Source of the DNA: a virus
IMG/VR virus record: IMGVR_UViG_3300022413_000352
Location: 1 to 64,000 of that record
Reading direction: 5' to 3' (one strand)
Length of the DNA: 64,000 bases
The notes beneath the pieces are model-generated. The model did not search any database and was not told where the DNA came from. It worked only from the letters and a program-made list of their open reading frames with translations. Shown one piece after another: positions 39,273 through 59,298 of this stretch (the first letter of the stretch is position 1; each line of letters starts with the position of its first letter). Both the position numbers and the translations under genes were made by a program.

Positions 39273-39275
39273 GGC

Positions 39276-41957: not shown

Positions 41958-42002
41958 ATGCACGCCATCCTTTTGAAATTACAGTGTGACTTACTACTAT
42001 AT

Positions 42003-42030
42003 TTTATATGGCTAATACAAAAGGATGCAA
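42003..42030 (-). promoter_or_regulatory. Sigma70-like promoter for the lyase gene
   Basis: TTGCAT and TATAAA with a 16-base spacer on the minus strand, about 45 bases before the lyase start. The XRE gene starts about 80 bases away on the other strand, so the promoters of both are close enough for shared control. Confidence 0.45.
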
Positions 42031-42108
42031 ACATTTACTACTCAATATTTTAGTTGTTTACCTACGCTTTTTGTGGTACCATTTTATACATTAGAGAAAG
42101 GTTTTCCT

Positions 42109-42321
42109 ATGACATTGGGTGAACGTCTACGGTTGTTACGTATGAGCCATGGATTGACACAAAATGACCTTGCACGTTTAGCTGGTGTAACACGTCCGTT
42201 GATAAGTCGTCTAGAGCGGAACCAACGGGCTGGGATAAACCTTAAAACCGCAAGGTTATTGGCTCAAGCAATGAACATATCCATTGACGAGCTAGTGGGT
42301 GATTCTCAAATAGTAGATTAA
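42109..42321 (+). CDS. XRE-family transcriptional regulator
   Basis: A 70-residue HTH protein: 'LGERLRLLRMSHGLTQNDLARLAGVTRPLISRLERNQRAGINLKTARLLAQAMNISIDELV', the complete XRE/Cro-CI fold with no extra domain. GAAAGG lies before the ATG at 42109. It stands at the head of the T4SS cluster and divergent from the lyase gene, so it is the likely repressor of one or both. It could equally be a phage immunity regulator. Confidence 0.85.
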   Translation: MTLGERLRLLRMSHGLTQNDLARLAGVTRPLISRLERNQRAGINLKTARLLAQAMNISIDELVGDSQIVD

Positions 42322-42323
42322 TA

Positions 42324-42386
42324 CTGCTGACCAGGAGCTACATGCCTGCAAAACCCGATCAGCAGCAAAGTAGAGTCTAAAGACTC
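42324..42386 (+). promoter_or_regulatory. Two hairpins in the pilin gene leader
   Basis: CTGCTGA (42324-42330) can pair with TCAGCAG (42359-42365), and GAGTCT with AGACTC around AA (42373-42386). They lie between the regulator stop and the GGAG before the pilin gene. They could limit read-through or stabilise the pilin message. Confidence 0.4.
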
Positions 42387-42414
42387 ATCTCATGATATCA
42401 CAAGGAGTTACTCA

Positions 42415-42852
42415 ATGCACCAGTCTCGTAGCATCACATCTATCAACACCCTAATAGTGATCGCATCAATCATTCTAGTTGATACCGCCCTCGCATCCAC
42501 AGGTGTGACGCCATCTCCGGGGCAAACCCCAGCTGCTGCTCAAACTGTGTTCTCAAGCTGGGATAGTATCGTGTCTTCAAATGTGATTCCATTGGGTGCA
42601 TTAGCTGTCGGTATTGCTGCCATTTTTGCTGGCATTCGAGCTGGCAGTGGTGGACTTATTGGTGGTGGAATCATTGGGTTATTGGCTGCCATTCTTATGA
42701 CAGCGCTACCTGCAATTGTTCAGGAAGGCGCAGCTGGTGCCTCATGGGGATTAGCCGCATCGGCACAGAGTAACATCCTCACAACCCTGCTGCCGTTCAC
42801 TCTCGCGGTTCACGCCGTCGTGCGATACACCCGCCAGCGCTTGTTGGTATAG
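42415..42852 (+). CDS. VirB2/TraA-like conjugative pilin
   Basis: A 145-residue precursor with a long signal peptide (MHQSRSITSINTLIVIASIILVDTALA). Two hydrophobic segments follow (NVIPLGALAVGIAAIFAGIRAGSGGLIGGGIIGLLAAILMTALPAIV), as in VirB2/TrbC pilins. Gly-rich spacing between the two helices is typical. Next to a VirB3-like gene it is the expected major pilin of the T4SS. AAGGAG precedes the ATG. A third hydrophobic stretch near the C-terminus is longer than in most pilins. Confidence 0.75.
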   Translation: MHQSRSITSINTLIVIASIILVDTALASTGVTPSPGQTPAAAQTVFSSWDSIVSSNVIPLGALAVGIAAIFAGIRAGSGGLIGGGIIGLLAAILMTALPAIVQEGAAGASWGLAASAQSNILTTLLPFTLAVHAVVRYTRQRLLV

Positions 42853-42854
42853 CT

Positions 42855-43175
42855 ATGGCATCTGCACTATGGAACAGCGCCCCAACACAGCAAGACGAGC
42901 CGTTGACGATCTTTGGTGGTTTGCGTGCAGTTGACGCTGCGCTCACGTTCTTTACGTTCTTCAGTTCATACATGTTACTACAGGCATTTACCACCTTGAG
43001 ATACCTACTCGTGTTTGGGTCCGCCATCGGACTCAGTATCGCGTTCTATCTCGCGCTGTTAGGTGTCAGGCAGATTGGCCCCGACGGGTTTCATTGGTCG
43101 TTTCTGCACTGGTTTGGCGTTATACCGATTCGTGGCGCAGTACCAGCCAAAGGTGTAAAGCATGAACCTTTTTAA
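42855..43175 (+). CDS. VirB3/TraL-like inner membrane protein
   Basis: A 106-residue protein. It has a soluble N-terminus (MASALWNSAPTQQDEPLTIFGGLRAVDAALTFF) and two close membrane segments (FFTFFSSYMLLQAFTTLRYLLVFGSAIGLSIAFYLAL). Length, topology and position right after the pilin gene fit VirB3/TraL, which works with the VirB4 ATPase in pilus assembly. It starts three bases after the pilin stop and overlaps the next gene by 14 bases. Confidence 0.7.
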   Translation: MASALWNSAPTQQDEPLTIFGGLRAVDAALTFFTFFSSYMLLQAFTTLRYLLVFGSAIGLSIAFYLALLGVRQIGPDGFHWSFLHWFGVIPIRGAVPAKGVKHEPF

Positions 43176-43359
43176 TACTATCGATTTGGGATATGCGATT
43201 GTTGTTGCGGGTGCTATTAGCCTTGGGATGTCTATTGCGTTAACGGCATTTGCCGCAGTGTCTATCGTGTTCAGATTAGGCATCGGGATTATCATGGGGC
43301 TGATCGTTTTGCGCCTCTTAGAAGCGATTGCAGCGGGAGACGTCCATGGACTTATTTGA
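43162..43359 (+). CDS. Small two-helix membrane protein of the T4SS cluster
   Basis: A 65-residue protein with two hydrophobic helices (LGYAIVVAGAISLGMSIALTAFAAVSIVF and GIGIIMGLIVLRLLEAIAA). It overlaps both neighbours and so is coupled between TraL and TraE. A homologue in known systems was not recognised; it could be an extra pilin-like or scaffold subunit. Confidence 0.55.
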   Translation: MNLFNTIDLGYAIVVAGAISLGMSIALTAFAAVSIVFRLGIGIIMGLIVLRLLEAIAAGDVHGLI

Positions 43360-44011
43360 CACGTCTGCACCCCGTGAACATGCTAGAGCAATAGTGCTTA
43401 TATTTGCGCTAGTGCTCAGTATTGCAGGTAACGTCGTATCAGTCTTCTGGTACGGCGGTAAGACGATTCACTATATCCCGGTGACGTCAACGGGTGAAGT
43501 GGGCGCGATGCAAACCAGTCGTCCAGGTGAATTCCCGGTATCCATTCAACGCAACGTGGCAGAGCTAGTCGTCCTTACACTGGGCAACACGACGTCAGAT
43601 AGCCTGATGGCGTCAATCCAAACGGTGCGCCCTTACCTTAGTCCTGCAACTTACACCGCGTTACATGCTCAAGGGACATCCGAAGTAAGCCCTATGCAAA
43701 CCGCTGATATCTCAATCATGACGACTGATCTCAAGCTAGAAAACGTCGCTCCGGTTGGCTTGCTTAGGCGGTTTCGGTTTAGCGCCATGCGTCGTATGTA
43801 TAGCTACGGTATGGCGCTCGATCCTCACCCAGTAACGGTTGTTGTTGACGTTATGCCGCCGCAGGTGGGCACAGGGCTCGCAAGCTCATTGCAGGTATCT
43901 CATATCGCGTGGCCAGAACTGAAAATCAAGGATGGCAGCTTTCAAGATTTCAGTTTTACCGAACAATTAATCAATGCACATGTGCCATTTAGACGCGGAG
44001 TAACAAAGTGA
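43346..44011 (+). CDS. TraE/VirB8-like T4SS protein
   Basis: A 221-residue protein with a cytoplasmic start, one N-terminal membrane segment (AIVLIFALVLSIAGNVVSVFWY) and a periplasmic domain. Its 'VAELVVLTLGNTTSDSLMASIQTVRPYLSPATYTAL' resembles TraE of F-type systems. The order L-(small)-E-K-B matches F plasmid order. It should form part of the inner membrane complex. GGGAG precedes the ATG at 43346. Confidence 0.75.
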   Translation: MDLFDTSAPREHARAIVLIFALVLSIAGNVVSVFWYGGKTIHYIPVTSTGEVGAMQTSRPGEFPVSIQRNVAELVVLTLGNTTSDSLMASIQTVRPYLSPATYTALHAQGTSEVSPMQTADISIMTTDLKLENVAPVGLLRRFRFSAMRRMYSYGMALDPHPVTVVVDVMPPQVGTGLASSLQVSHIAWPELKIKDGSFQDFSFTEQLINAHVPFRRGVTK

Positions 44012-44748
44012 TAAAACGCGGAGGGTTAGCAGCTCTTTTTCTGTGCATACTCACTACGACTCTATCCGCTCATGAAATCGAAGTGATGTATGATCGCCAA
44101 GACGCCGTTAAAGTTGCCGTTCACTATAAGAAAATGACAACGATCGCCTTTTGGGATGTGGTCGCCAACGTGAGCACTACGATACCAGCAACGACGTTAG
44201 ATATTCGCAAAGACGAGTTGTTCCCACATACGATTACCCTGTCCAATCTGAAAAAAAAGACGACTGGCACGGTATACGTAACGCTCGCTAGCGGGGTTGT
44301 GGTTCATATCGACATCCGGTACTGGGGTAGGATCACTCAGAAAGTTATTGTCAAAGACGCCCGTACAGAAGCTCAGAAGGCTGTACAACAAGCCAAAGCC
44401 AAAACCGGCATGACGATAGACGAGCGCACTCTTCGGACACTGTGGGCTGTCCAGTGGGGCCTGAAGACGGATACGAGCGTACAAGTCACCAAACAAAGCC
44501 AACTACTCAACCGTAACGATCACCGTGAGGTCGTTTTGACCACAAGATACCAGACGGTGGGGTTTACTGGTTTTACTCAGTCTATCCACAACCGATCGTC
44601 TGAGCCAATCCAGATACACCCGGCAACCGTTACAACCGATTGTGATCTATTCAGTGTGAGCGTCGAAGGCGCGTATACGGTGCAGCCAGGACAACGGGCT
44701 GTGGTTCACATCGTATGCAAGGGAGCCACTCATGCCACGTTTCGCTGA
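44008..44748 (+). CDS. TraK/VirB9-like outer-membrane complex protein
   Basis: A 246-residue protein with a signal peptide (MIKRGGLAALFLCILTTTLSA). An N-terminal secretin-like beta domain follows (PHTITLSNLKKKTTGTVYVTLASGVVVHIDIRYWG), then 'IVKDARTEAQKAVQQAKAKTG'. The C-terminal beta part (TRYQTVGFTGFTQSIHNRSSEPIQI...) suits a TraK-like fold. Its ATG overlaps the TraE stop, and its end overlaps TraB by 17 bases. It is expected to build the outer-membrane channel with TraB and TraV. Confidence 0.75.
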   Translation: MIKRGGLAALFLCILTTTLSAHEIEVMYDRQDAVKVAVHYKKMTTIAFWDVVANVSTTIPATTLDIRKDELFPHTITLSNLKKKTTGTVYVTLASGVVVHIDIRYWGRITQKVIVKDARTEAQKAVQQAKAKTGMTIDERTLRTLWAVQWGLKTDTSVQVTKQSQLLNRNDHREVVLTTRYQTVGFTGFTQSIHNRSSEPIQIHPATVTTDCDLFSVSVEGAYTVQPGQRAVVHIVCKGATHATFR

Positions 44749-45871
44749 GGCTTTCCTAAGGCTACTTTCTCACTGGATCACAGTTGTTGTCGGTATCGTG
44801 GTGATTACAGCAGCCGTGTTTGTCTATAACCGATCTGCTCAGAGCCAGGATACAACACCCTTAGCAACCTATCACACCGGTGGGTTGGCACCCAGTGAAG
44901 ACGCCGGTATTTTGGGCGGGATAGCGGCTCAACAACAAAAAACGGACGTGCTGACACGGCAACTACACGACATGAAAGCGAAGCTAGAGCAACTTGAGCG
45001 CAAACCCGATCCCCCATCGAACACTAAAGCGAATCAGTTGTTGCGGGAACAACTCAGAGCACTACAAGCCCAAGTCGCGCAAAACAACGCGCTTCGCAAT
45101 AGGTCTACCCCGGCGCAGCTACCCCCTCAACCTCCGCCTGTTTCTGTGAGGGTTATTCAGGGTTCCCGCGCAGGCGTCACAGTGTCTAACCGGATTCAAG
45201 TAGCTGGAAATCGCGCTGCATCACCCACAGCACCTGCACCGTACTTACCCCCACAATCGTTTGCTAGGGGGCGCGTTAAGGATGGCTATACTGGACTCGC
45301 CAGTATCGAAACTTTCCCGGTGACGATTGAGGTAACATCCGCATTTAATGCGCCAAACGGGCACACTGTCCCACTCACGGGCTGCCGGTTTGGCGCGACT
45401 TCGACGCCTGAAGAACTGACGGCACGCGGGCGCTTAGCCCTAACCCGGATCACCTGCGTCAATGCCAACGGGATCACCATTGAACGTCCGATTTCAGGCT
45501 ATGTGACAGCCGCTGACAATATCAACGGACAGATTGCGCAAGTCTTTTGGCACGAGAGAGAAGTGGTGGCGGCATTCGCTAAGAGTGCGGTTCCGGCTGC
45601 TCTGGTCTCTCTCTTTAAAGAAACCCGCCGAGTGGTGGATGTTGCGACGCTTACTGGCGTTCTGGTGCAGTCGAGCAACACCGTAGCTCAAGAAGTGGCG
45701 GGGCGGATGGCGGATATCTACTTAGATAAGGCTGAGAAACTGGCGTCACCCATTATCTGGGTAGCGCCTGACACACCCATTTACATTTACATCACGCAAG
45801 GGGCACGGCTTGATGGGCTTCAAACAATCGAACCCACACGTGAGCCACTAGCCCGGAGGATTTTGAAATGA
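44732..45871 (+). CDS. TraB/VirB10-like channel scaffold protein
   Basis: A 379-residue protein with an N-terminal membrane segment (HWITVVVGIVVITAAVFVYN), a coiled coil (LTRQLHDMKAKLEQLERKPD...LREQLRALQAQVAQNN) and a Pro-rich stretch (PAQLPPQPPPVSV). A C-terminal VirB10-type barrel follows (IEVTSAFNAPNGHTVPLTGCRFGATS... YIYITQGARLDGLQ). The architecture is the energy-transducing scaffold that links the inner and outer membranes. The lengths and order match F-type TraB. Confidence 0.85.
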   Translation: MPRFAEAFLRLLSHWITVVVGIVVITAAVFVYNRSAQSQDTTPLATYHTGGLAPSEDAGILGGIAAQQQKTDVLTRQLHDMKAKLEQLERKPDPPSNTKANQLLREQLRALQAQVAQNNALRNRSTPAQLPPQPPPVSVRVIQGSRAGVTVSNRIQVAGNRAASPTAPAPYLPPQSFARGRVKDGYTGLASIETFPVTIEVTSAFNAPNGHTVPLTGCRFGATSTPEELTARGRLALTRITCVNANGITIERPISGYVTAADNINGQIAQVFWHEREVVAAFAKSAVPAALVSLFKETRRVVDVATLTGVLVQSSNTVAQEVAGRMADIYLDKAEKLASPIIWVAPDTPIYIYITQGARLDGLQTIEPTREPLARRILK

Positions 45872-46329
45872 TACGGTATCTGATTCTCATTCTAGGCGTA
45901 CTCGCTTTAATGCCAGCTTGTGCCAAGTACAATACTCATCTTGGGCGGGTGAATCACGACAACAGCCCATTCACGTCGTCACAACAGGGCGCTGCAAGCG
46001 TGTCGTACGGCGGTGCGCCTATCAATATCGTGCCCCAATTGGTTTTGCCCATTACTCGTACTGTTTGGATCAAAGGGCATCGACGCCCGAATGGCGATTA
46101 CGTAGGTGATTACCCCCTGACAATCGTATTTACACAGGGGCAATTTGAGCACGTACAGAAACAGAACCCAGTCATTCCGCAATCTATTTCACTAGCTGAT
46201 GGTTACCACGAACCAGGCAAGGCAATAACGGATCGCCTACCGACTATGACGTTACCTACAGGTGCCCAGTTACAGGGTGTCATTGAAGCCACCAAATCGC
46301 GATTAGGGGCTGCCAATGATACCAAGTAA
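45868..46329 (+). CDS. TraV-like lipoprotein
   Basis: A 153-residue protein with a lipoprotein signal ending in LMPAC (Cys18). TraV is the outer membrane lipoprotein of F-type T4SSs and forms the pore with TraK and TraB. The gene order here is TraB-TraV-TraC. Similarity beyond the lipobox, size and position is weak, so the name is from context. It overlaps the preceding and following genes by a few bases. Confidence 0.65.
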   Translation: MIRYLILILGVLALMPACAKYNTHLGRVNHDNSPFTSSQQGAASVSYGGAPINIVPQLVLPITRTVWIKGHRRPNGDYVGDYPLTIVFTQGQFEHVQKQNPVIPQSISLADGYHEPGKAITDRLPTMTLPTGAQLQGVIEATKSRLGAANDTK

Positions 46330-48742
46330 TATGTTGCTACCCTATGGCACGATGCTGGACGACAAAGGTATTGTGTTGCTTCACAGACCTGCTAAGTTTG
46401 GACCGCTTAGCCGATTTGCCTTAGGTTGTGTGTTTGAGGTAACGCCCCTGGATATCGATCTACTTTCAGAAAGCGAAGTGGAACGAGCAGCGGCAGACGT
46501 CAAAGCGCTTATCTTAAACTTGAAGCCGTCGGCAATCCTAGACGTACGGTTGGATATGCGCCCCATTACGAACGTTCCGGCATGGGACAAGGCTCACGAA
46601 ACGCAGCATGATCCCGATACACAGCTTGTGCGTGAGCACATTGCCAATGGGATGCCCCACACGCCAGGCGCTAGCCCGATGCGGCTTACTGAGTGTAAAG
46701 TGACGATTGGCTACCGCTACCCTCTTAAAGGCAATACCCGGCAGATACGCCAAATCTTAGACGTCCTAGCTCAGATTAAACCGTGGGGTAATGCGGCAGC
46801 GGCAACGGTATTGAAAGAGCGCCTAGAAGCCGAGTTTAACGAACAGCTTGTGGCGTTTGAATCCACAGTTACCGGTATCGAGAGATCCTTGCGCCTATTG
46901 GATCTTACCCCGGTTCGACTGGATGGTACTGGGCTTATCAGTGCACTCAACCGGGCGGCGGGGCCAGATGCGACAGCGCCCACTGTGTACGACCCGGATA
47001 TGAGTATTGGTGAGCAAATACATGTACCGTACGATCTGGGTGATACAACTATAAAAACGGTCAATCATACCGCTACCGTCTACACGTTAGAGCGCAGTGC
47101 AGCCGATGCGTTTGCTGGCATTCTGGGCGCATGTCGCACGCCTGAGGTAAATGTACACGGGTTGCCACTCGGTGAATTGGGTACACCGCTCTCCATTGCA
47201 GTGACAATCATGGTTAAGGATCAAGCCAGGAAGCGTACCACGTTATCGCTCAAGCACAGTCTAGCAAACTTGCTCAAGGTGGGTGGGCTGGGTGAAGAAC
47301 GGAAAGACGCTGAACAGCAAGTAGACGCTCTCGGTGAACTCATTGCAGCCATGGCAGACGGTAGTGAGCAAGTACACGACGCGATGGTAAGTGCAGTGCT
47401 GTGGACCCGAAATGGTGAGACCCTCACTGATAGTCTATTTCAGAAAATGTCGTTGGACATGGCGATACACTGGTATAAAGAGCCGTTTATCGCCAGCACG
47501 TTATTCTTACGTGGTTTACCGATTGGGTGTGATCCCGGCTTTCCAAATGAAAACTTCGTGCGTCGCTCACGTCAGATTGCGACTCGTACACTTGCCCGCT
47601 TAGTGCCGCTGTGGGGCGCATTCCAGGGAAGCCGAACCCCAACCGCGCTTTATGTGAACCGTCGCGGCGAGCCTGTGTTCTTTGATTTGTTCGATCGCAC
47701 GGGTACCCCTCATATGACGATTGTGGGCAAGTCCCGGCGGGGAAAGTCAGCTTTTCTCAATACCTATATTAATCAGATTAGCCCGGACGACTACCTCGTC
47801 TATATTCTTGATCGATATGGCTCATACGACGAAATGGCACGCCGTCGAAAGGGTAAGCTGGTTAAGTTTAACGCCACAACTCCAATTTGTATTGGTCCTA
47901 TGGAAGGCGCTTTAGACGCACGCCACTGTCAGCATATGGCAATGATTATTGAAGAAATGGCAATGGCAGGCTTTCAGGATCAACACGTAAGCCCGGACGA
48001 ACGAACGCTGATTGGTAATTACATTCAAGACTGGGCGCTCAAGGGGCCGACAGCTCAAACCATGTCTGACTTTGTGGCGTACTTAGGCAGCAATGGTGAT
48101 ACATTTGCCAGACAGCTACAACTACTACTAGGTCCGTATATCAAGGATGGACGGTATGCCCCGTTTATCGACGGACCCAATCAATTGGGCATTGCCGACA
48201 GCTCGTTTTGGGTAGCGGATATCGCCGGATTAGAGGACTTTCCCGAACTACAGTCGATCATTATCGCATCTCTATTTACCTCACTTGAGCGGCATATCAC
48301 AAACTCGGATCTAATGAATATCCGTAAAATTCTCGCAGCCGATGAGGTGTCTTTCCTGATACGCAACCCACAGGCGGCAGAGTTCTTGCGCAAGTTGGCT
48401 GTTGCTCTGGCGCGGTTTTTTGCGTCGTTTGTCCTGATCTCACAATCGATGAGTGATTTTTTAACCGATCTGGGATCAGCCGCTGTAAAGATGAGTGATA
48501 CCCATATCTTTTTTAACCTTGGACGACAAGAGCTTCATGAAATATCCGAAGTTTTTAAGCTGTCGGAGCACACGGCTGACTCAATTGTAAGCCTGCGTAA
48601 ATATGAGGATTGTTCAGAGTGTGTCATCCGCTTTGAAGAAGGTGAAGGCGGTGCGGGAATCATTCGCGTGGTACCGCCACCCGAGTTTATCCAAGCCATA
48701 GGGCAATCTGAAGCCCATAGAGCGGCCAGAGGAGTTGTCTGA
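46316..48742 (+). CDS. TraC/VirB4-type secretion ATPase
   Basis: An 808-residue protein. Walker A is 'IVGKSRRGKSAF' (about residue 470) and Walker B 'ILAADEVSFLI' (about 673), with 'LDRYGSYDEMARRRKGK' between them. The N-terminal half has the TraC-type region (ALDVRLD..., RQIRQILDVLAQIKPWG) and the C-terminal part the usual sensor stretch (LISQSMSDFLTDLG...AVKMSDTHIFFNLG). It powers pilus assembly and substrate transfer at the inner membrane. Length matches F TraC. Confidence 0.9.
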   Translation: MIPSNMLLPYGTMLDDKGIVLLHRPAKFGPLSRFALGCVFEVTPLDIDLLSESEVERAAADVKALILNLKPSAILDVRLDMRPITNVPAWDKAHETQHDPDTQLVREHIANGMPHTPGASPMRLTECKVTIGYRYPLKGNTRQIRQILDVLAQIKPWGNAAAATVLKERLEAEFNEQLVAFESTVTGIERSLRLLDLTPVRLDGTGLISALNRAAGPDATAPTVYDPDMSIGEQIHVPYDLGDTTIKTVNHTATVYTLERSAADAFAGILGACRTPEVNVHGLPLGELGTPLSIAVTIMVKDQARKRTTLSLKHSLANLLKVGGLGEERKDAEQQVDALGELIAAMADGSEQVHDAMVSAVLWTRNGETLTDSLFQKMSLDMAIHWYKEPFIASTLFLRGLPIGCDPGFPNENFVRRSRQIATRTLARLVPLWGAFQGSRTPTALYVNRRGEPVFFDLFDRTGTPHMTIVGKSRRGKSAFLNTYINQISPDDYLVYILDRYGSYDEMARRRKGKLVKFNATTPICIGPMEGALDARHCQHMAMIIEEMAMAGFQDQHVSPDERTLIGNYIQDWALKGPTAQTMSDFVAYLGSNGDTFARQLQLLLGPYIKDGRYAPFIDGPNQLGIADSSFWVADIAGLEDFPELQSIIIASLFTSLERHITNSDLMNIRKILAADEVSFLIRNPQAAEFLRKLAVALARFFASFVLISQSMSDFLTDLGSAAVKMSDTHIFFNLGRQELHEISEVFKLSEHTADSIVSLRKYEDCSECVIRFEEGEGGAGIIRVVPPPEFIQAIGQSEAHRAARGVV

Positions 48743-49992
48743 TGCACCGCACTGTTATTGCGCTCATTCTGTTAGCTCTCAGCGCTCATGCCGTGGTTGC
48801 TCAAACCATATTCGAGGAAGGGCTTAACGCCAACCTATCAGGCATAAGCGTGACACACAATCCCAATTACTTCAGGGGATCGCTAAACTTCGACCCGATC
48901 CTACCCCCAAACCGCACCACATTATTTCGCGGGCGGGCAGAGTCCGGTGATTTTTGTAACTTCGATTTAGTGGCGACGATGTTCCAAGAATTCGCTGAGC
49001 TGCCCGGTTTGCTGATTGAGCTGTTGCCGCTGATTATTGCGGGGATCGGCATCCACTTTCTATGCGCCACGTTCCCAGAGCAGTGCTCGTTGATGAAGGA
49101 TATTAAGAACTACGCCAATCTCGTTTTACGGTTTCAACGGGCTAGTTGTAATGAAGTAGTCGAGTCTGCGATGTATGGCGGAGTTGAGGCGAGTAACAGT
49201 GCCCTGGGCGAATGTTTCCGTGACGCCGCCCCAGGCGAATCAAGTCAAGCGGTATGGCGTCGCTGTCGTGAAGATCGCGGCGGCTTTATCCCACTACCAA
49301 ATGGCGGTAGAGGAACGGAAGTTGACGTGATTGCCATAATTCTAGAAACGGCTGGCGTTCCCCCTGAAGATGCAGCTCGAATCCAAGGGTATACGGGATC
49401 ATTTACGATCTTCTCCCAGGGTAACGTTTTCTCAACCGCGAAGACTGCCCCAACAGAGTCGGCAATCACTTACTATGCTGCTCGAAAAGAGGAATTTGCC
49501 GAGACGGTGGCTGAATTGGTGTCGGATGCCGTAGGTGGCAATCAACCGTCTGCTGAGCAACTCGCGGGGGTATCCGTTCCTGGTACGCCGTTACCTGTGG
49601 CAGCAATCGACTCTATAGCGGGTGAGCGCAACGCCACGATGCGAGCCTATAAATCTCAGGCATTAGCAGCACAACTGGCACTGGCTAGGTCCAAGTGGGA
49701 CTTGACTGAGGACTTGCACAAGCTTGAGAAAGCGATACAGGCTTCTGAGATCACGCCGGATCAAGCCAAAGTAGCGCACTTGGCACTCGCCAACTTTAAG
49801 CATGAGATTAACCGGTTAGAAGAGCTAAAAAAGATCGTCGATGAGCACTACCGCCCGGCTGTCGAAGGCTTGCTAGAAGCACGGGCGAATCAATTGCTAG
49901 AGGCGACGATCGCATCTGCACAGGTTCAGCCAACGCAGAATTCCGCCAGCCGTTATCCGGATGGTCAAACCTCATTCGGTTACTCACAATAG
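48742..49992 (+). CDS. TraH/PFL_4711-like periplasmic T4SS protein
   Basis: A 416-residue protein with a signal peptide (MHRTVIALILLALSAHAVVA). A 'SGDFCNFDLVATMFQEFAELPGLLIELLPLIIAGIGIHF' stretch and Cys pairs (CSLMKDI, ASCNEVV, ECFRDA, RRCREDRGG) recall TraH and the related PFL_4711 family of integrative elements. The C-terminal half is helical (LTEDLHKLEKAIQASEITPDQAKVAHLAL). The ATG overlaps the TraC stop. In F, TraH helps pilus assembly and retraction. Identity is moderate and based on pattern and place. Confidence 0.55.
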   Translation: MHRTVIALILLALSAHAVVAQTIFEEGLNANLSGISVTHNPNYFRGSLNFDPILPPNRTTLFRGRAESGDFCNFDLVATMFQEFAELPGLLIELLPLIIAGIGIHFLCATFPEQCSLMKDIKNYANLVLRFQRASCNEVVESAMYGGVEASNSALGECFRDAAPGESSQAVWRRCREDRGGFIPLPNGGRGTEVDVIAIILETAGVPPEDAARIQGYTGSFTIFSQGNVFSTAKTAPTESAITYYAARKEEFAETVAELVSDAVGGNQPSAEQLAGVSVPGTPLPVAAIDSIAGERNATMRAYKSQALAAQLALARSKWDLTEDLHKLEKAIQASEITPDQAKVAHLALANFKHEINRLEELKKIVDEHYRPAVEGLLEARANQLLEATIASAQVQPTQNSASRYPDGQTSFGYSQ

Positions 49993-50001
49993 GTTAACAC
50001 T

Positions 50002-50442
50002 ATGTTTATATTCCCGTTAACCCTATCAGAGGCAAGCGGCACCTTCGTTGGGCTGGAAGCCCAGGCACTGATTCGTTCAGCCCTTGGACCTGCACCGGCC
50101 CTAGTAATCTTATCGGGTGCGGCATTTATCGGGCTTGGAATGATACGGGGGCACCGTCGGCTAGTTGATCTTGCGTTTTATCTGTTCGCCAGTTTACTCA
50201 CGCTCTCTTTGATATGGCCCGCATCGTCTTCCGTTTCCCCCTCAGATGTGCAATCACAAGCAGCGTCAGGGCAAGCCATTCAAGACGCATCGGGTTTGCT
50301 ACCAGGGCGAGCGGGGTTACAAATTCCAAGGGTAGAGGTGGAATTGCTGCGGGCCATATCGGGTATGTGGGTAAACGTTGCCAGAGCAATTAACAGCGAC
50401 GGGGATCGCCCCTTCAGTGAAGTTGCCCGATCTCGTGGTTGA
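50002..50442 (+). CDS. TraG_N/VirB6-like protein, N-terminal part
   Basis: A 146-residue protein with hydrophobic segments (PAPALVILSGAAFIGLGMIR, VDLAFYLFASLLTLSLIWP). The C-terminal half (RVEVELLRAISGMWVNVARAINS) continues in sense into the next gene, which starts within its stop codon. Together they resemble the N-terminal membrane domain of TraG/VirB6-like proteins. The split into two frames appears genuine because both halves have starts, and coupling is by TGATG. Confidence 0.6.
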   Translation: MFIFPLTLSEASGTFVGLEAQALIRSALGPAPALVILSGAAFIGLGMIRGHRRLVDLAFYLFASLLTLSLIWPASSSVSPSDVQSQAASGQAIQDASGLLPGRAGLQIPRVEVELLRAISGMWVNVARAINSDGDRPFSEVARSRG

Positions 50443-51395
50443 TGCGTCAAGGCTTGTCTGGGGAGGCAACGGCACTTATTCGGGAATGGACATCAGCGTG
50501 CGTGATGCCAGCTCGCAAACGACTCTTAGACAGAGGCGGCGGTGCCAACTCAGAAGAGTTGCTGCCGTTCCCTGGTAGCGCCTTGCATGGCGTCATGGGC
50601 GATATCACCGTGCAAATGGGCAATGACTTTATCCTGTGTGGTCCCCAATCGGATGTGATCATGACGGTGGCGAGAACTGAAGTCGAAGGATTCTTGTCAC
50701 CCGGCGGAAACAGTATGAGCCAGATATGGTCATCAGAGCTTAGTATTGCCCCGGCTGAAGTGGTGAAGTTTCTCATCATGCGGGAGGTAAGAAGAGCCAG
50801 TGGGCCAGAAATACAACCCGTATCATTAACGGGGCTCTATGCGACCATGCGTGTCATCACATCGATGAGCGGCGGGATCAAGGATGCAGCGATCGGCACA
50901 TTAAATTTACAAGGCGGCGATGTCTTAGCTGGATTAGGTAGCGCGTTGACAGGTGGGGTATCGAGTGCCGTATCTGATCTCGCGGTTTCAGTCCAGGCTC
51001 TAGTTGGAAAAGCACTATTTGTCACTAAGTTTAGCAGTGACATTGTGGGCGTTTTGCAGGCGGTGATCTTGGCTGTTTTCCCATTTGTGGCGCTAGTGGC
51101 TCTAACCCCCGGCAAGCATATCCTTACACTGGTTTCCTACGTTTATTTGCTTGTGGCGATTTACTCAATGCCGTTTGCATGGGCACTTGTAGATCTGCTC
51201 TCTGATATCGCGCTGTCGCAAGCTGGTAGCCTTACCCTTGTTACGAACCCAGTAGTAACCCTTGAAGCAATGGCATCCGCGTTAATCATTGTTACGATAG
51301 GGACTTGGGTTGCCCTGTTCGGTTTAGCGTTTGCGATTCTACTGCCTATTGCTGGCGGGGCTTCTATGGTAATTCGTGGTGCAAGAGGAGTGTAA
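50442..51395 (+). CDS. TraG_N/VirB6-like inner membrane protein, main part
   Basis: A 317-residue protein. The N-terminal portion (EATALIREWTSACVMPARKRLLDRGG) has the TraG_N-type W...CV.PA pattern. Several hydrophobic helices follow (VVGVLQAVILAVFPFVALVALTPGKHILTLVSYVYLLVAIYSMPFAW, MASALIIVTIGTWVALFGLAFAILLPIAG). This is the mating-channel/VirB6-type component. Its ATG overlaps the previous stop. Unlike F TraG, the large periplasmic C-terminal domain is absent. Confidence 0.65.
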   Translation: MRQGLSGEATALIREWTSACVMPARKRLLDRGGGANSEELLPFPGSALHGVMGDITVQMGNDFILCGPQSDVIMTVARTEVEGFLSPGGNSMSQIWSSELSIAPAEVVKFLIMREVRRASGPEIQPVSLTGLYATMRVITSMSGGIKDAAIGTLNLQGGDVLAGLGSALTGGVSSAVSDLAVSVQALVGKALFVTKFSSDIVGVLQAVILAVFPFVALVALTPGKHILTLVSYVYLLVAIYSMPFAWALVDLLSDIALSQAGSLTLVTNPVVTLEAMASALIIVTIGTWVALFGLAFAILLPIAGGASMVIRGARGV

Positions 51396-51397
51396 AA

Positions 51398-51793
51398 ATG
51401 TTGGAACAAAAAACATTCTACGATAAGAATCACACGGCATGGTTGAACCGCCCCGGACCCGCTAGAGGATTCCCATTATGGTGGTTATTTATCTATGCGT
51501 TCATTCCCGGACAAGTGATCCGCCTGCTACTCAGTCAACCGTTCTGGGTTGGATTGGCGATTTCATCTGTTGTAGCGCTCGCCCTGCTGGTGGTTTGCGC
51601 GTATGTCAGTTTCGCGTGGCGTGTCAACCAAACGTGCCCCGAATGCCAAACTACGAAAACGAGAGGATATACACGATGTTCAGGTTGTGGTTACCCGTCT
51701 TCATGGTCGTCGGATTCGTCACAGCCGCAGACGCGCAAGAGTCCTGTGTATTCGCTGGACACGCGATCCCGTGCACGGTTGAAACGAGTGTAA
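51398..51793 (+). CDS. Membrane protein with zinc ribbon
   Basis: A 131-residue protein, MLEQKTFYDKNHTAWLNRPGPARGF, with two membrane segments (FPLWWLFIYAFIPGQVIRLLL, VGLAISSVVALALLVVCAYV). A CPECQ...CSGCGYP zinc ribbon follows at residues about 80-100. Its last 118 bases overlap the following gene in a different frame. The ribbon lies at the start of that overlap, so the tail is probably real. Role in the T4SS is not known. Confidence 0.55.
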   Translation: MLEQKTFYDKNHTAWLNRPGPARGFPLWWLFIYAFIPGQVIRLLLSQPFWVGLAISSVVALALLVVCAYVSFAWRVNQTCPECQTTKTRGYTRCSGCGYPSSWSSDSSQPQTRKSPVYSLDTRSRARLKRV

Positions 51794-52164
51794 CCACAGG
51801 CGAATCGATTACCCTTGAGCCGATCACTAAAACGGATTGGCAATTCCTTGAGCGTGATATGGCTCGCGACGCCACAGCCTTACACGCTGAACTTTTGAAC
51901 AACACAACGTTAGAGAATGCCAAACGCTATGCGCTATCTGAGATTTACCGACAATACAGGGGCATGCAAGCCATGAAGCTAGCCACCTACGTCCGGGCTC
52001 AGATCATGGCGCAAATGCGGGCTAAGTACGGCGATCTCGATGAGCTTGGGTTGATTGAAGCGGCAGTAATTGAGTCCGGAATGCCCGTTATCAGTGTCCC
52101 CGATTTGGTAAAGACGCTGAAGCCTGGTGATCTCATGCGCGCAGGAGTGCCCAATGGTCAGTAG
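51676..52164 (+). CDS. Exported hypothetical protein in the T4SS cluster
   Basis: A 162-residue protein with a signal peptide (MFRLWLPVFMVVGFVTAADA) and a helical mature domain (RDMARDATALHAELLNNTTLENAKRYALSEIYRQYRGMQAMKLATYVRAQIMAQM). GAGG precedes the ATG. It may be a periplasmic partner of the channel; no family was recognised. It overlaps the upstream zinc-ribbon gene by 118 bases and the transglycosylase by 11. Confidence 0.55.
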   Translation: MFRLWLPVFMVVGFVTAADAQESCVFAGHAIPCTVETSVTTGESITLEPITKTDWQFLERDMARDATALHAELLNNTTLENAKRYALSEIYRQYRGMQAMKLATYVRAQIMAQMRAKYGDLDELGLIEAAVIESGMPVISVPDLVKTLKPGDLMRAGVPNGQ

Positions 52165-52594
52165 CTATGTGATAGCCGCGCTCTTAGCTAGCACGTGTCC
52201 AACCGTACCGCATGAACTTGTCCACGCCATTGTAGCAGTTGAATCCTCAGGCGATCCCTACGTGCTGAATGTTGGCGTTGGGAGTACCTGGAAAGCGTAT
52301 CGCTTCGATGACATTGACGATGCAAAGGTGTTTTTACAGGCGGCGTTGCAAGTTACTCAAAACGTCGATATCGGGTTGATGCAAGTGAATTGGAAGTGGT
52401 GGGGTAAACATATTGGAGTTACGGCTAGCGAGTTACTCGACGTACCCACGAACCTGCGGGTGGGGTGCGATATCCTCAGTCGGGAATTAGCGGGTAAGGG
52501 TCCATTGTGGCAAAGGATTGGGCGTTACCATAGCCGTACGCCATGGCGGAATGAACAGTATGCGTTAAAGGTGATTCATGAGACGATCCGCTAG
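52154..52594 (+). CDS. VirB1-like lytic transglycosylase
   Basis: A 146-residue enzyme. 'HAIVAVESSGDPYVLNV' holds the catalytic Glu of the SLT family (ES.G.p), and 'DIGLMQVNWKWW' the second SLT motif. A weak N-terminal export signal (MVSSYVIAALLASTC) is present. It should open the peptidoglycan for T4SS assembly. AGGAG precedes the ATG at 52154. The same protein could in principle also serve the phage during entry or exit. Confidence 0.85.
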   Translation: MVSSYVIAALLASTCPTVPHELVHAIVAVESSGDPYVLNVGVGSTWKAYRFDDIDDAKVFLQAALQVTQNVDIGLMQVNWKWWGKHIGVTASELLDVPTNLRVGCDILSRELAGKGPLWQRIGRYHSRTPWRNEQYALKVIHETIR

Positions 52595-53558
52595 TCTGTT
52601 AACCCTGATACTGTGCCTATCCAGTAACGCATATGCTCAGTTGGACTTCACCACGCTGATTAATCCCGCGTGTGCTGACTTCAAAGTGTTGGGCAGTTGC
52701 TCTTGTACCAATGTCCTACAGTTTGACCAGGTTTGCACCCGTGTGTCTTACCATCAGCCAAAACTACTTATTGAGACGGTTCCAATCCCCGGTGATACCT
52801 ATTTAGGCGGCATCCTTTCGCCCGCATTGCTTGTCGGACTTGTGACAGCTGGCGAAGCTCTGGCGTTTGCCGGTGGATCGGGTGCTGCACCGCTTGACTC
52901 TGGGCACAACCAACTGAGCTTTAGAGAAGCCCATGTATTCACAATCCCGCCAATCTTCCCGTATGGGTGTAACGCTTGTGATGAACAAGGTGAGCCAGAG
53001 CCGACTACCGTCACCTTAAACTACGCATCCGAATTGGACTTTCCAAACTGGCGTTATTTACCTGACGGAATCGCTCAACCACTGCCAATCGCTGGCTTAT
53101 CTCTCGCCGGTGTTTGGGGTAGTTTGTACCCACGGACGGGTAAATCAGCCCACGATAGTCCCCCGGTTGCTGCTGCATTAATGGCATGGCGAGCTGCAAC
53201 AATCGCCTACAACCCAGCGCCAGGACCAGGAGGTATTGTACCTCATACAGTCCTCCAACCCGCTATTGGCATTCCCCCTGTCTGCTTTCAGTGCGCTAAG
53301 CCAACGCTTTCCAAGTGTGGATTGGTAGGAATGAACCCGTTGCACTGGCAGCTTGAGAAAGTTGAACCACGGGGGCGCAACGTTTTCATTCTATGGGAAA
53401 GGCGCATTTGCTGTGTCGATCCATCCACGGCAGCATGCGGGCTTGCAGGGCTTGCGGTAACTGGTGGGGGTGCTGATAATTTTTGTGACATTCCATATGA
53501 CCCCGTATTCGGTATTGTCCCCGGTATGCCCATAGATATCCCATTCGATGGGCACTAA
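52578..53558 (+). CDS. TraU/PFL_4710-like exported T4SS protein
   Basis: A 326-residue protein with a signal peptide (MRRSASLLTLILCLSSNAYA). The 'INPACADFKVLGSCSCTNVLQFDQVCTRVSYHQPKLLIETVP' stretch resembles the Cys-rich start of TraU and of the TIGR03756/PFL_4710 family (P.C..w.v.G.C......f.C.v..sv...hP). Many further Cys pairs (GCNACDEQG, PPVCFQCAKP, RRICCVDP) suggest disulfide-rich folding. TraU-type proteins are needed for DNA transfer in F-like systems. Moderate confidence in identity. Confidence 0.65.
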   Translation: MRRSASLLTLILCLSSNAYAQLDFTTLINPACADFKVLGSCSCTNVLQFDQVCTRVSYHQPKLLIETVPIPGDTYLGGILSPALLVGLVTAGEALAFAGGSGAAPLDSGHNQLSFREAHVFTIPPIFPYGCNACDEQGEPEPTTVTLNYASELDFPNWRYLPDGIAQPLPIAGLSLAGVWGSLYPRTGKSAHDSPPVAAALMAWRAATIAYNPAPGPGGIVPHTVLQPAIGIPPVCFQCAKPTLSKCGLVGMNPLHWQLEKVEPRGRNVFILWERRICCVDPSTAACGLAGLAVTGGGADNFCDIPYDPVFGIVPGMPIDIPFDGH

Positions 53559-53901
53559 TGTGAACCCAATACAAGCCATATTCACAGAGAAATACAGCCA
53601 CCTAGTAGCTCTCTCAGGCGCACGACTCACGCTGCTTATCCCTTACCTGTGGTTCTTGTTACTTGTGGTTATCGTCGGTGGATACGAGGGCAATGACTGG
53701 CGCAGACAACGACTTTATGCGGGCTACTACCGCTTGATCTTAGCCACTGCCACCATACTCTTTGTGGGTATGCTAGTCGCACTCGGAGCATGGTTAATTA
53801 TGCCCAGTCTGATGCAGCCACACATAACAGCCATTGGCTTAGCTGTAATCGGGTTTGCACTCGGTTGGACAGCAATGGCTGGGCGTCCGGTAATGAGGTA
53901 A
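53548..53901 (+). CDS. Small membrane protein upstream of the coupling protein
   Basis: A 117-residue protein with three hydrophobic segments (LTLLIPYLWFLLLVVIVGGY, LILATATILFVGMLVALGAWLIM, ITAIGLAVIGFALGWTAM) and a basic loop (GNDWRRQRLYAGYY). It starts inside the TraU-like gene by 11 bases and ends three bases before the VirD4 gene. A partner or membrane anchor of the coupling protein is possible; no family was recognised. Confidence 0.55.
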   Translation: MGTNVNPIQAIFTEKYSHLVALSGARLTLLIPYLWFLLLVVIVGGYEGNDWRRQRLYAGYYRLILATATILFVGMLVALGAWLIMPSLMQPHITAIGLAVIGFALGWTAMAGRPVMR

Positions 53902-53903
53902 AA

Positions 53904-55691
53904 ATGTCCATTACAATCCCGTTTCCCAATCGTCAACTGTTAATCGAGTTTGGCTTTATCATTGCAGTGTGTGCGATCGCATTCATAGTTGTACTGCCGA
54001 TGCTCGATGTCTTTCCTTACGGACATGCATTCTTCATTGCTTGGCTATTCTGGAGAGCACACTGGGTCGCTAAACAACTACTGATGCGCGGTAGCTGGAT
54101 GAACCCGCAATCAGCCAAACCGTTACCCGTTAAACCCAACCCAAATGGCATTGTACTCGGCGATGGTTTTACTTGGACAGGTGACCACGTGGACGCTATT
54201 CAGCGCTATGTGCATGTCGCCAAATCGCTACCACAAGATGATGGTAAGCGCGGTGGATCGCCTGCGATTCACGGCTGCGGTTCTCACCGCGATCGCTCAG
54301 TCATTTTGCCCTATGAACGGCTGCGTAGTCACGTGGCTATTGAGGGCTCAACCCAGAGCGGAAAGACGGTGCTACTCGCCAACATGATTAGCCAAGCCAT
54401 TGCGATTAACCAGGGTGCGGTAGTTATCATGGATCCAAAAGGTAGCGATCAGCTCTACTACACGGCAAAGGCAATGGCTGAACGCTGTGGGCGCAAGTTC
54501 GCGTTAATTCGCCCGCGAACACCCTTGCTTAGTTCTCGGTTTAACGTGTTATCGTCATGCGAGGAAGCTGTTGATATGCCGGGGCGGTTGCGCCCGATCT
54601 TCCCTGAAGGCCGTGAAGCGTATTTCAAGGAAGAACCGTTATCCATTTGGCTGAGAGTCGCTGCTATGCACAAGGCGCTGGGGATCACATGGGATATTCG
54701 CGATATCCATAACGCCGTGATGGATTTAGACACGCTACGCTGGACACTGGCGCAGTATATGGCGCTCAAAGGCATTGGCTTTAGAGGATTACGCCGTACA
54801 GATATGCCCGACGTTGATATGCTGAAAAATAAGTATGTCGAGATGGGAAAAGACGATCCGTTAATTCCCGGTATTCTGCGGCCGCTAACCCGTAAACAAG
54901 AAACTCATCAAGAGCGCTGCGGCAACTTAGACGTCGCGCTTAGTGGTGTGGTGGACATCGAGCACGCTGAAATATTTGGAGCACAAGACGCACTCACTTG
55001 GCGGGACATTGACGAGGGCAACATGGTTGTAATCTTTCGCACCGATTCACTCGTCACCCAACAGATCGGGCGCAACATCGCGTCTCTGTTCTTCCAGGAT
55101 TTCATGGGCTATATGGGGCTGCGGTACCTCACGAGCGGAACCAGTCGTATTCCAATTACAATGTTCGTTGATGAAGTTGGCGAGATCGTTTATCCCGACT
55201 TTCGGCAAGCAATCAATAAGGTGGGTGAGGCCGGTGGGCGTCTTATCCTCACATGGCAAACTAAATCCGATCTGGATGCCACGCTTGGGAAGTTCCAGGC
55301 GGATGTGATCCGGGCGAATTGTCAATCGCGGATCACCATGCGGATTGCGGATGATGAGACCGCCGATATTCTATCGAGACAATCACCTAAAGTTCGAGTA
55401 ACTCGGCTTACAGGTAACCGATCCATGTTGATGGGATCAAACTCTGGTAAGGGTATATCTGTCGAGCACGAGGATGTGCCTCTACTCGAAGCAAACATTT
55501 TACAAGGGCAACAGGTAGGGCAAGGATTCTTCAGATTAGATGGATCGCTATTCCATTTTAATATTCCATTTTCTGAAAGTGAGGTACCCAATGACTCAAC
55601 GCCTACTAATAGTTTTAGTTACTCTATTTGTACTCAGTGCTTGCAGTGGCTCAGGTGGTTTGGACGATCAAGACTTTCCTCAAACTCGTGA
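53904..55691 (+). CDS. VirD4/TraD-type coupling ATPase
   Basis: A 595-residue protein with N-terminal membrane segments (FGFIIAVCAIAFIVVLPML, FFIAWLFWRAHWVAKQLL). Walker A is 'VAIEGSTQSGKTVLLA' (about residue 147), followed by VIMDPKGSDQLYY, and Walker B is 'TMFVDEVGEIV' (about 417). The C-terminal part has 'RLILTWQTKSDLDATLGKFQADVIRANCQSRITMRIADDET'. These are the T4CP hallmarks. It should bring DNA or protein substrates to the T4SS, implying substrate transfer and not only pilus formation. GAGGTAAAA precedes the ATG. The end overlaps the lipoprotein gene by 101 bases. Confidence 0.9.
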   Translation: MSITIPFPNRQLLIEFGFIIAVCAIAFIVVLPMLDVFPYGHAFFIAWLFWRAHWVAKQLLMRGSWMNPQSAKPLPVKPNPNGIVLGDGFTWTGDHVDAIQRYVHVAKSLPQDDGKRGGSPAIHGCGSHRDRSVILPYERLRSHVAIEGSTQSGKTVLLANMISQAIAINQGAVVIMDPKGSDQLYYTAKAMAERCGRKFALIRPRTPLLSSRFNVLSSCEEAVDMPGRLRPIFPEGREAYFKEEPLSIWLRVAAMHKALGITWDIRDIHNAVMDLDTLRWTLAQYMALKGIGFRGLRRTDMPDVDMLKNKYVEMGKDDPLIPGILRPLTRKQETHQERCGNLDVALSGVVDIEHAEIFGAQDALTWRDIDEGNMVVIFRTDSLVTQQIGRNIASLFFQDFMGYMGLRYLTSGTSRIPITMFVDEVGEIVYPDFRQAINKVGEAGGRLILTWQTKSDLDATLGKFQADVIRANCQSRITMRIADDETADILSRQSPKVRVTRLTGNRSMLMGSNSGKGISVEHEDVPLLEANILQGQQVGQGFFRLDGSLFHFNIPFSESEVPNDSTPTNSFSYSICTQCLQWLRWFGRSRLSSNS

Positions 55692-55986
55692 GCAAGAGTT
55701 TGCTGAGGAAGCGCTGTTTCGTGCGCTGGATCGGGTTGAAGTAAGTTGCGAAGTTGTAAGCTGTCACGGTGATGGAATTCATACAGAAGTGGTTGATCTT
55801 GTTTTCAACAATATCAATGCGACGTGCCAGCAACGCTGCATGCGAGTCGAAGTCGCCGGAGAAGAGCCGCGACACTATTATGCATGGTTGGTGTGGCGGC
55901 GGATTCCAAATACCTGCTACCACGCTGAAAAGTATGAGGTTCTGTTGATGAAAGAAGTACCTGTAATCTGTGTCGAAACACACTGA
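55591..55986 (+). CDS. Lipoprotein at the end of the T4SS cluster
   Basis: A 131-residue protein with a lipoprotein signal (MTQRLLIVLVTLFVLSAC). The mature part has paired Cys (SCEVVSC, TCQQRC) and a 'YYAWLVWRR' motif, then ends near VICVE. The lipoprotein at 36883-37263 shares this order, which points to duplication. It may be a VirB7-type, entry-exclusion or superinfection-exclusion lipoprotein; none of these is proven. It overlaps the coupling protein gene and ends nine bases from the convergent phage gene. Confidence 0.6.
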   Translation: MTQRLLIVLVTLFVLSACSGSGGLDDQDFPQTREQEFAEEALFRALDRVEVSCEVVSCHGDGIHTEVVDLVFNNINATCQQRCMRVEVAGEEPRHYYAWLVWRRIPNTCYHAEKYEVLLMKEVPVICVETH

Positions 55987-55994: not shown

Positions 55995-56483
55995 TTATCT
56001 ATGATAATGATCATAATGCGGGGGATCAATATAGTCGGGTTCTTTTACTTTTGGGTTTGGGTACAGAGGATGGATTATAGTATCTTTAGTAGTTTTTTGA
56101 TTAGCAGGCTTTACATTGATTTTTGGTAACTTATAATACGGATCGTATTCCTCAATACGAAAGGGTCTATTTATTATTCTCGGTTTATAAGTCTCAAGGT
56201 GGAACTCTTTCTGCTTAACTTGTATTTCAGTTACAGCTTTTAACACATCATATTGGAATTCATCCACTTTATCAGCCAACCGGTTGACTTGATGATTCAG
56301 CCTTGCGATAGCATTACGAAGTTCAACGATCTCATGCGTTCGCACTGCCCCAGCGTGTGGCTGTAAATTGTGATTTTGCAGTAGTATCCAAGTAGCGGTG
56401 AGGGGTAACCCTAAGATTGGAAGAAGCCAGCCGACAAGTGATTTCCAACTAACCGGGGAATTCCCGCCGCCGGTAGCAACCAT
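55995..56483 (-). CDS. Membrane-anchored coiled-coil protein
   Basis: A 162-residue protein with one N-terminal hydrophobic segment (SWKSLVGWLLPILGLPLTATWILLQ), then a coiled coil (HEIVELRNAIARLNHQVNRLADKVDEFQYDVLKAVTEI). A Pro/Tyr/Lys-rich tail follows (PNPKVKEPDYIDPPHYDHYHR). It faces the T4SS cluster head-on and is the last gene of the head module. The architecture recalls inner-membrane spanins or tail anchors. Function unknown. Confidence 0.55.
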   Translation of the reverse strand: MVATGGGNSPVSWKSLVGWLLPILGLPLTATWILLQNHNLQPHAGAVRTHEIVELRNAIARLNHQVNRLADKVDEFQYDVLKAVTEIQVKQKEFHLETYKPRIINRPFRIEEYDPYYKLPKINVKPANQKTTKDTIIHPLYPNPKVKEPDYIDPPHYDHYHR

Positions 56484-56501
56484 ACGGCTACCTCCAACTG
56501 T

Positions 56502-56753
56502 TTAAGATGTATCTTGAACGCTGAAAACGACCCAACCCCCTTGTTCATAGAGGGGTACATCATGTTCGGGAATCAATACAAAGCCGCGCCCTTGCCCGAC
56601 GCGCTCACGATATGCCGCGAGTGACTTGGTATCGGTGTAGCTGATTAGAGTTTTACTGTCCATGTCCCCATAGTAAGCGGGATCAGCACTTTCAGACTTT
56701 GGGCACCAAATAGACGCGATTTGCTCTTCTAGGCTGAGTTTCGCTGGCTCCAT
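56502..56753 (-). CDS. Small hypothetical head-region protein
   Basis: An 83-residue protein starting MEPAKLSLEEQIASIWCPKSESADPAYYGDMDSKTLISYTDTKSLAAYRERVGQG. The ATG at 56753 follows GGGAGAT, so the longer frame is not used. The N-terminus contains a helix with a single Cys, and the C-terminal half is beta-like (FVLIPEHDVPLYEQGGWVVFSV). It overlaps the upstream gene by 25 bases. A head-completion role is inferred from its position only. Confidence 0.5.
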   Translation of the reverse strand: MEPAKLSLEEQIASIWCPKSESADPAYYGDMDSKTLISYTDTKSLAAYRERVGQGRGFVLIPEHDVPLYEQGGWVVFSVQDTS

Positions 56754-57067
56754 AAGACATATCTCCCGCTCGCGTTGTCCTTCCACTCTCGCGCAGTTAT
56801 TTCGATCATGACGCGCCTACCCCGACGGTTTGAATCGTAGACCTCAACCCGTCCATTACGATTTAGAGGCACTTCAGGCTCGACAGACGCCTGATACGCC
56901 TCAACAATCGTTTCAGTTGGTGGCTCGACGTGAACCACCGGCTCTGAAGTATCCTTATCTTCCCACCGGGTATGTACCTTGGAATTAAAGTCGGTCAGAT
57001 TAATTGAAACCCGACCGACAGATGAATCCCAAGGGCATACCACAGCGATAGTTTCAAGCTGTGGCAT
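56729..57067 (-). CDS. Hypothetical head-region protein
   Basis: A 112-residue protein immediately downstream of the capsid gene (nine bases). The N-terminal half (MPQLETIAVVCPWDSSVGRVSINLTDFN) is beta-like, with an acidic middle and a C-terminal 'RVEVYDSNRRGRRVMIEITAREWKDNA'. The position after the major capsid protein is usual for decoration or head-completion proteins, but no family was recognised. Confidence 0.5.
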   Translation of the reverse strand: MPQLETIAVVCPWDSSVGRVSINLTDFNSKVHTRWEDKDTSEPVVHVEPPTETIVEAYQASVEPEVPLNRNGRVEVYDSNRRGRRVMIEITAREWKDNASGRYVLWSQRNSA

Positions 57068-57076
57068 TTAACTTCC

Positions 57077-58237: not shown

Positions 58238-58272
58238 GAGGGCACCTATGCGGTTTAGTGATTGAATATAAC

Positions 58273-58387
58273 CAGCTTACGGACACCGCGCTGATAGTGT
58301 CTGAAAATCGGCCTATCCACGGACACCGCGATAGGTGTGGACTGAACGGACGGTGGAACAACTGGGGTCACGGACACCGCAACCCCA
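58273..58387 (-). promoter_or_regulatory. Three hairpins with an identical apical motif in the capsid gene leader
   Basis: On the minus strand the 11-mer GCGGTGTCCGT occurs three times (plus-strand 58279-58289, 58319-58329, 58370-58380). Each copy is enclosed by a different stem: GCTG/CAGC (58273-58276 with 58290-58293), CCTATC/GATAGG (58312-58335) and TGGGGT/ACCCCA (58363-58387). The motif can itself fold as CGG-TGT-CCG. Different stems around one loop show that pairing is conserved while sequence is not. The stems extend with G-U pairs only on the minus strand, matching the capsid message. Confidence 0.75.
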
Positions 58388-59295: not shown

Positions 59296-59298
59296 ACT

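Follow-up and report, generated by a model that had tools for sequence, protein, structure and literature searches.

An F-type type IV secretion system encoded in an apparently complete tailed-phage genome

Introduction

Can a tailed phage carry a conjugation-type apparatus of its own and, if so, what would the apparatus do for it? The question is raised by the virus record IMGVR_UViG_3300022413_000352, in which a block of 19 plus-strand open reading frames (ORFs) at 42.1-56.0 kb, mostly overlapping and running from a helix-turn-helix (HTH) gene (start at about 42103) to a lipoprotein gene (stop at 55986), encodes an F-type type IV secretion system (T4SS), the needle-like kind of apparatus with which plasmids transfer DNA between cells. 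The window analysed here comprises the first 64,000 bases of this 66,902-bp record. Phages and conjugative elements are regarded as distinct kinds of mobile DNA, and a phage with such an apparatus would blur the division. A preliminary inspection of the letters alone, referred to below as the sequence-only reading, had already described these 19 genes as a T4SS inside a tailed-phage genome.

Results and Discussion

The secretion operon

The ORFs, the profile searches and the phage genes on the flanks all bear out that description. The F-type gene set spans 13.6 kb (Table 1), and VirB4, VirB10 and VirD4, the three proteins with whose profile matches the sequence-only reading was to stand or fall, all match their profiles. 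The identities of TraC/VirB4, TraD/VirD4, TraU, TraB/VirB10 and the transglycosylase are confirmed by these searches, and all five scored between 92 and 100% in hhalign comparisons with families assembled from plasmids (F included). TraC scores higher with TIGR02746 than with other VirB4 models, yet below the equivalog cut-off of TIGR02746 itself, and it also matches P-loop_TraG (9e-17). The Pfam match of TraU lies above the cut-off and that of TraB just below the gathering score (33.7 vs 35). The Walker motifs of the ATPases are intact, as had been claimed.

The remaining names are of unequal standing. TraE and TraG_N are weakly supported, being the top-scoring hhalign families for their proteins, but at 6-8%. 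The names pilin, TraL, TraK and TraV were derived from gene order and topology, and hhalign gave no signal for TraA, TraL, TraV or TraH. AlphaFold, run without relatives, returned poor models for TraK and TraE (predicted local distance difference test scores, pLDDT, of 40 and 38). The "TraH-like" label given earlier to the product of 48742-49992 is without support, as neither hhalign (for TraH) nor Pfam, NCBIfam or PHROG provided a match. PHROGs contributed no T4SS family at all: the matches were P-loop cross-matches (FtsK-like, terminase), plus a few weak ones to families without a known function. The gene order is F-like; the order of the F plasmid, as proposed from the letters, is recovered to that extent, while TraW, TrbC, TraN and TraF are not recognisable. 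Promoter and terminator scans showed no enrichment over shuffles.

Table 1. Coordinates of the T4SS genes and of other features of the window (TM, transmembrane)
Feature	Position	Strand	Evidence
Cro/C1-type HTH regulator, first gene of T4SS block	42103..42321	+	Pfam HTH_3 1.7e-14; start read from sequence
Pilin-like (TraA/VirB2 position)	42415..42852	+	hydrophobic N-terminus, two TM stretches; profiles silent
TraL/VirB3-position membrane protein	42855..43175	+	order and TM only
Small membrane protein	43162..43359	+	two TM stretches
TraE/VirB8-like	43346..44011	+	Pfam TraE 0.063; top hhalign family TraE, weak; one N-terminal TM
TraK/VirB9-position exported protein	44008..44748	+	order, signal-like N-terminus; weak hhalign; AlphaFold uninformative
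TraB/VirB10	44732..45871	+	Pfam TrbI 4.1e-8; PRK13729 TraB 5.5e-10; hhalign 98%
TraV/VirB7-position lipoprotein	45868..46329	+	lipobox-like N-terminus and order only
TraC/VirB4 ATPase	46316..48742	+	TIGR02746 3.4e-54; Walker A GKSRRGKS; PDB 4ag5 4e-6; hhalign 100%
Exported protein, 416 aa	48742..49992	+	no Pfam, NCBIfam or PHROG match
Membrane protein, probable N-terminal part of split TraG_N	50002..50442	+	two TM stretches; 4-bp overlap with next ORF
TraG_N/VirB6-like	50439..51395	+	Pfam TraG_N 0.0033; top hhalign family TraG, weak
Membrane protein, zinc-ribbon-like cysteines	51398..51793	+	sequence
Exported helical protein	51676..52164	+	sequence; no NCBIfam match
SLT transglycosylase (VirB1-like)	52151..52594	+	Pfam SLT 6.2e-7; hhalign 93%
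TraU, F-type marker	52578..53558	+	Pfam TraU 7.4e-16; hhalign 92%
Membrane protein	53548..53901	+	three TM stretches
TraD/VirD4 coupling protein	53904..55691	+	TIGR03743 9.6e-55; TraG-D_C 2.9e-14; hhalign 99%
Lipoprotein ending T4SS operon	55588..55986	+	probable paralogue of 36874-37263; local score 61, 0/5000 shuffles as high
Candidate operator, 10-bp inverted repeat CATCCTTTTG-N42-CAAAAGGATG	41966..42027		between divergent lyase and HTH genes; so long in 7/500 shuffles
Fibre-like gene, N-terminal part	1..316	-	runs off left end inside 63-bp repeat; same frame resumes at right end of 66,902-bp record
Phage tail module: fibres, tail protein J, tape measure, chaperone-like	320..24190	-	PHROG 31 1.3e-78, PHROG 2335 9.3e-31; Phage_TAC_1 0.0074
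Replication/early region: exonuclease and primase/helicase (-); RecT and HNH (+)	25030..39527	mixed	profile searches
Early-operon lipoprotein	36874..37263	+	probable paralogue of lipoprotein ending T4SS operon
Phage head module: TerL, portal, head morphogenesis, scaffold-like, major capsid, small genes	55995..63451	-	PHROG 979, 145, 241, 283

Residence in the phage genome

The markers of a tailed phage (Caudoviricetes), i.e., terminase, portal, major capsid, tape measure and tail protein J, were all found by PHROG matches. Phage genes indeed lie on both sides of the T4SS, with primase, RecT and tail genes to the left and TerL, portal and capsid to the right. On the right flank the minus-strand order, starting from the T4SS, is small genes, major capsid, scaffold-like gene, head morphogenesis, portal and TerL, followed by an ORF in the TerS position. 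The two ends of the record share a 63-bp repeat, and comparison of the last 400 bases of the record with its first 400 gives a longest exact match of 173 bp. The repeat equals 21 codons, and a fibre-like gene reads in one frame over the end-to-end join, its N-terminus lying at the left end of the record and its C-terminus at the right. Because both ends fall in the same in-frame repeat with 173-bp identity, the record probably represents an entire genome of ca. 67 kb, circular or circularly permuted and broken at the repeat, and not phage pieces around foreign DNA. Circular closure is thus strongly indicated. Read in this circular way, the late genes would make up a single block on the minus strand, extending from 24 kb across the join as far as 56.0 kb, with the T4SS facing the end of this block. 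We consider the element best explained as a siphovirus-type phage of a Gram-negative host, the kind of host that an F-type system with outer-membrane components implies.

Both T4SS junctions lie between complete genes, and at the right one the convergent stops are 8 bp apart. In tetranucleotide profile, the two halves of the T4SS correlate with the head and tail modules at 0.56-0.70, vs 0.57-0.79 for the head and tail modules among themselves; composition is less typical in the lyase gene and the early region. Furthermore, the lipoproteins that stand at the end of the T4SS and in the early operon align with a local score of 61, the next best protein of the window reaching 47. Chimerism is unlikely, given that the genome probably closes into a circle, that the junctions are clean, that the composition matches and that the T4SS and the early operon have a lipoprotein family in common. 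Junctions, composition and paralogy argue for a T4SS resident in the phage, and only reads could exclude a misassembly.

The relatives of the T4SS are distant. When TraC and TraD were compared by tblastn with 72,556 plasmids, only distant matches of about 21-25% identity were among the records listed. TraC searches of 398 genomes from a single phylum and 175 from a single order gave best matches with 26-27% identity, and no TraC relative that we found exceeded 27%. A scan of a genome collection returned two Pseudomonas loci only. In the TraC tree the window sequence sits on a very long branch that joins Pseudomonas sequences with moderate support (90/93), a position subject to a long-branch warning. 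The distance of the relatives and the length of the branch point to a divergent lineage, with no recent capture from a known plasmid.

Some other features of the genome deserve mention. The gene left of the T4SS (40179-41963, minus strand), called a lyase in the sequence-only reading, encodes a secreted protein bearing fn3 (Pfam fn3 0.0014; NCBIfam exoglucanase CbhB over residues 22-119). Profiles back fn3 only, and the gene stands apart in composition from the remainder of the genome. Tandem repeats of 63 bp and about 135 bp occur in the fibre-like genes (1-2400 and the right end of the record), and the break falls in the 63-bp repeat. A fibre-like protein of 1604 aa (3531-8345, minus strand) combines beta-helix, F5/8 type C and PASTA domains, the last being unusual for a phage tail protein. 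Finally, a 110-aa product (28690-29022, minus strand; no NCBIfam match) looks by eye like an M15-type peptidase and is a candidate phage endolysin.

Possible roles of the apparatus

Our best reading, which we favour tentatively, is that the phage T4SS moves the element's own DNA between cells. The F-class (mating-pair formation class F, MPF_F) system would be a resident accessory module of a phage that persists in a living cell, with the HTH gene probably controlling the T4SS operon. VirB4, VirB10, VirB6 and TraU would assemble, together with the lipoprotein and the pilin, an envelope channel into which the VirD4-type protein would feed a substrate. The likeliest substrate would be the DNA of the element itself, which would reach neighbouring cells with the help of a relaxase acting in trans or of an unrecognised type, either of which is possible. 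Expression, assembly, substrate and benefit of the T4SS are all things we infer. The coupling protein VirD4/TraD, required of a self-transmissible conjugative element, is present, and its best profiles are conjugative, TIGR03743 being a family named for conjugative transfer. Since the ATPase motifs are intact and the coupling protein belongs to a family of conjugative type, transport of a cargo is likelier than a bare surface structure.

Several points weigh against this explanation. The main difficulty for self-conjugation is the relaxase: PF03432, PF07514 and PF08751, the families searched record-wide, had no match in the whole record, Pfam gave none in those ORFs to which it was applied, and no unassigned ORF showed a convincing HUH-type motif. 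As none of the three families was found, canonical self-conjugation is unproven. In addition, profiles recognise none of TraW, TrbC, TraN, TraF and TraH, of which very divergent versions may be present among the unassigned ORFs. Neither an integrase nor, among the ORFs scanned, a partition gene was recognised, so that the persistence in a living host assumed above is hypothetical; of the replication and partition genes that a phage-plasmid would combine with phage genes, a primase/helicase is present. All the evidence comes from one metagenomic contig, with no sister genome. The spread by conjugation that had been suggested from the letters is therefore possible and, in its coupling protein, has one of its parts in place, but it is unproven, the relaxase and several F-type mating-pair genes being the parts not recognised. 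A broader claim, that one virus genome holds two horizontal modes of transmission, tailed virions for separated cells and its own F-type channel for cells in contact, long co-evolved and not recently fused, strikes us as doubtful at present.

The main rival is that the T4SS exports protein, delivering phage effectors into neighbours and thereby killing competitors or readying them for infection. A coupling protein without a detected relaxase and the several unassigned exported ORFs of the operon would suit it; however, annotation brought up no effector or immunity pair that could be recognised and the best profiles of the coupling protein are conjugative, and we regard this role as unlikely. 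Effector delivery and the use of the pilus for host contact, both raised by the sequence-only reading, are conceivable.

It is rather improbable that the T4SS genes are passengers, captured from a plasmid or an integrative and conjugative element (ICE) by recombination and of no function for the phage. About a fifth of the genome is indeed without a visible essential phage role, and F-type components are missing, but all the ORFs are open and tightly packed, the composition is matched and TraC is far from known plasmids. We give little weight to a surface apparatus, or lipoproteins, serving attachment, biofilm contact or the exclusion of other phages or plasmids with no cargo moved. F-type systems can build a surface structure, a gene is present in the pilin position, and two related lipoproteins are encoded, one in the early operon and one at the end of the T4SS operon; however, both ATPases, including the one that couples cargo, have been kept with intact motifs, for which a bare surface structure would have no use. 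An assembly artefact, by which a fragment of a plasmid or ICE was joined into a phage contig, is very improbable: the contig is single, metagenomic and broken at its ends in a repeat, but two misjoins would have been needed, both exactly between complete genes, in DNA whose composition fits the head and tail modules and whose lipoprotein has its paralogue in the early operon.

If functional, the phage T4SS would give one virus two routes of spread, and a phage so equipped would bypass receptor-based resistance. It would also be a natural case for testing whether joint encoding and regulation of viral and conjugative transfer is possible and, were dual transmission shown, possibly a categorically new kind of element.

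Search for precedents

We searched 50,697 phage records with the window TraC and TraD, the F TraC and TraU, and the IncT TraC. Matches to F-type T4SS proteins were few, namely two Salmonella records and several unannotated human-fecal scaffolds. Three matching records were inspected (AB571791, MT835823 and MT835474) and phage structural genes were seen in none of them. AB571791 is a Salmonella genomic island and was rejected as a precedent. The ORF list of MT835823, a 17-kb fecal scaffold, shows T4SS-like genes and no phage gene. Ten large ORFs of the 83-kb scaffold MT835474 were compared with Pfam; the matches were to topoisomerase, RecD, coupling protein, TraG-type ATPase and leucine-rich repeats, with phage structural families absent. 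These two scaffolds, filed as phage in a public collection, look like fragments of conjugative elements. Outside this inspection stand AFYI01000007, a Salmonella record of 501 kb in which the match fell on an annotated TraD of the PFGI-1 class, and the fecal scaffolds MT835634, MT835704, MT835596, MT836227, MT836458, MT835940, MT836954 and MT836123, among which a phage is possible.

Scans of IMG/VR (TraC, capsid, TraD single and paired alignments, TraC fragments, TraU) returned no further T4SS-bearing contig, an absence that is weak evidence given short exact peptide patterns, with tblastn confirmation, and a very divergent protein. A TerL scan yielded 80 phage loci, none with a T4SS match within the flanks covered. 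We found no tailed phage with a T4SS described in the literature, most subscription papers lying outside the search. Tailed phages and F-type T4SSs are each known kinds; to the extent of our search, the two have not been described together in a single, apparently complete genome of a tailed phage.

Comparison with known systems

Phages with a related TerL include MW202444 (Manatee Spring, about 46% identity), Rhodobacter phage RcRudolph (42%) and Pseudomonas phages such as PaMx11 and Ab18 (39-40%). Of the first two, only RcRudolph is matched by the portal, weakly. A T4SS is annotated neither in MW202444 nor in the first 50 kb of RcRudolph.

On the side of secretion, the F-type systems of F, SXT/IncC and related plasmids and ICEs have the same order, from the pilin position through TraE, TraK, TraB, TraV and TraC to TraU and TraD, and TraC, TraB, TraU and TraD are families common to both. 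The system described here differs from them in a TraC about 20-27% identical, in the five F-type proteins not recognised, in the relaxase not found and in its setting, a tailed-phage genome. The TraC of the window groups with those of F-like clusters on the P. aeruginosa H15 plasmid and in a Pseudomonas genome, the former with a transglycosylase match nearby too; the grouping is unsure, with long branches on both sides, and the phage proteins of the window have no tblastn match in these loci.

The nearest case in the literature is the Streptococcus pyogenes conjugative prophage Phi1207.3. Its transfer between cells is reported to meet the operational definition of conjugation by a mechanism that, according to the authors, is yet to be elucidated, with no type IV system or relaxase named (PMC4260502). 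Phage-plasmids likewise combine phage and plasmid features, but the conjugation-transmissible cases described among P1-like plasmids with an origin of transfer (oriT) or a relaxase are without essential phage genes (PMC12977533), whereas here the virion genes are present.

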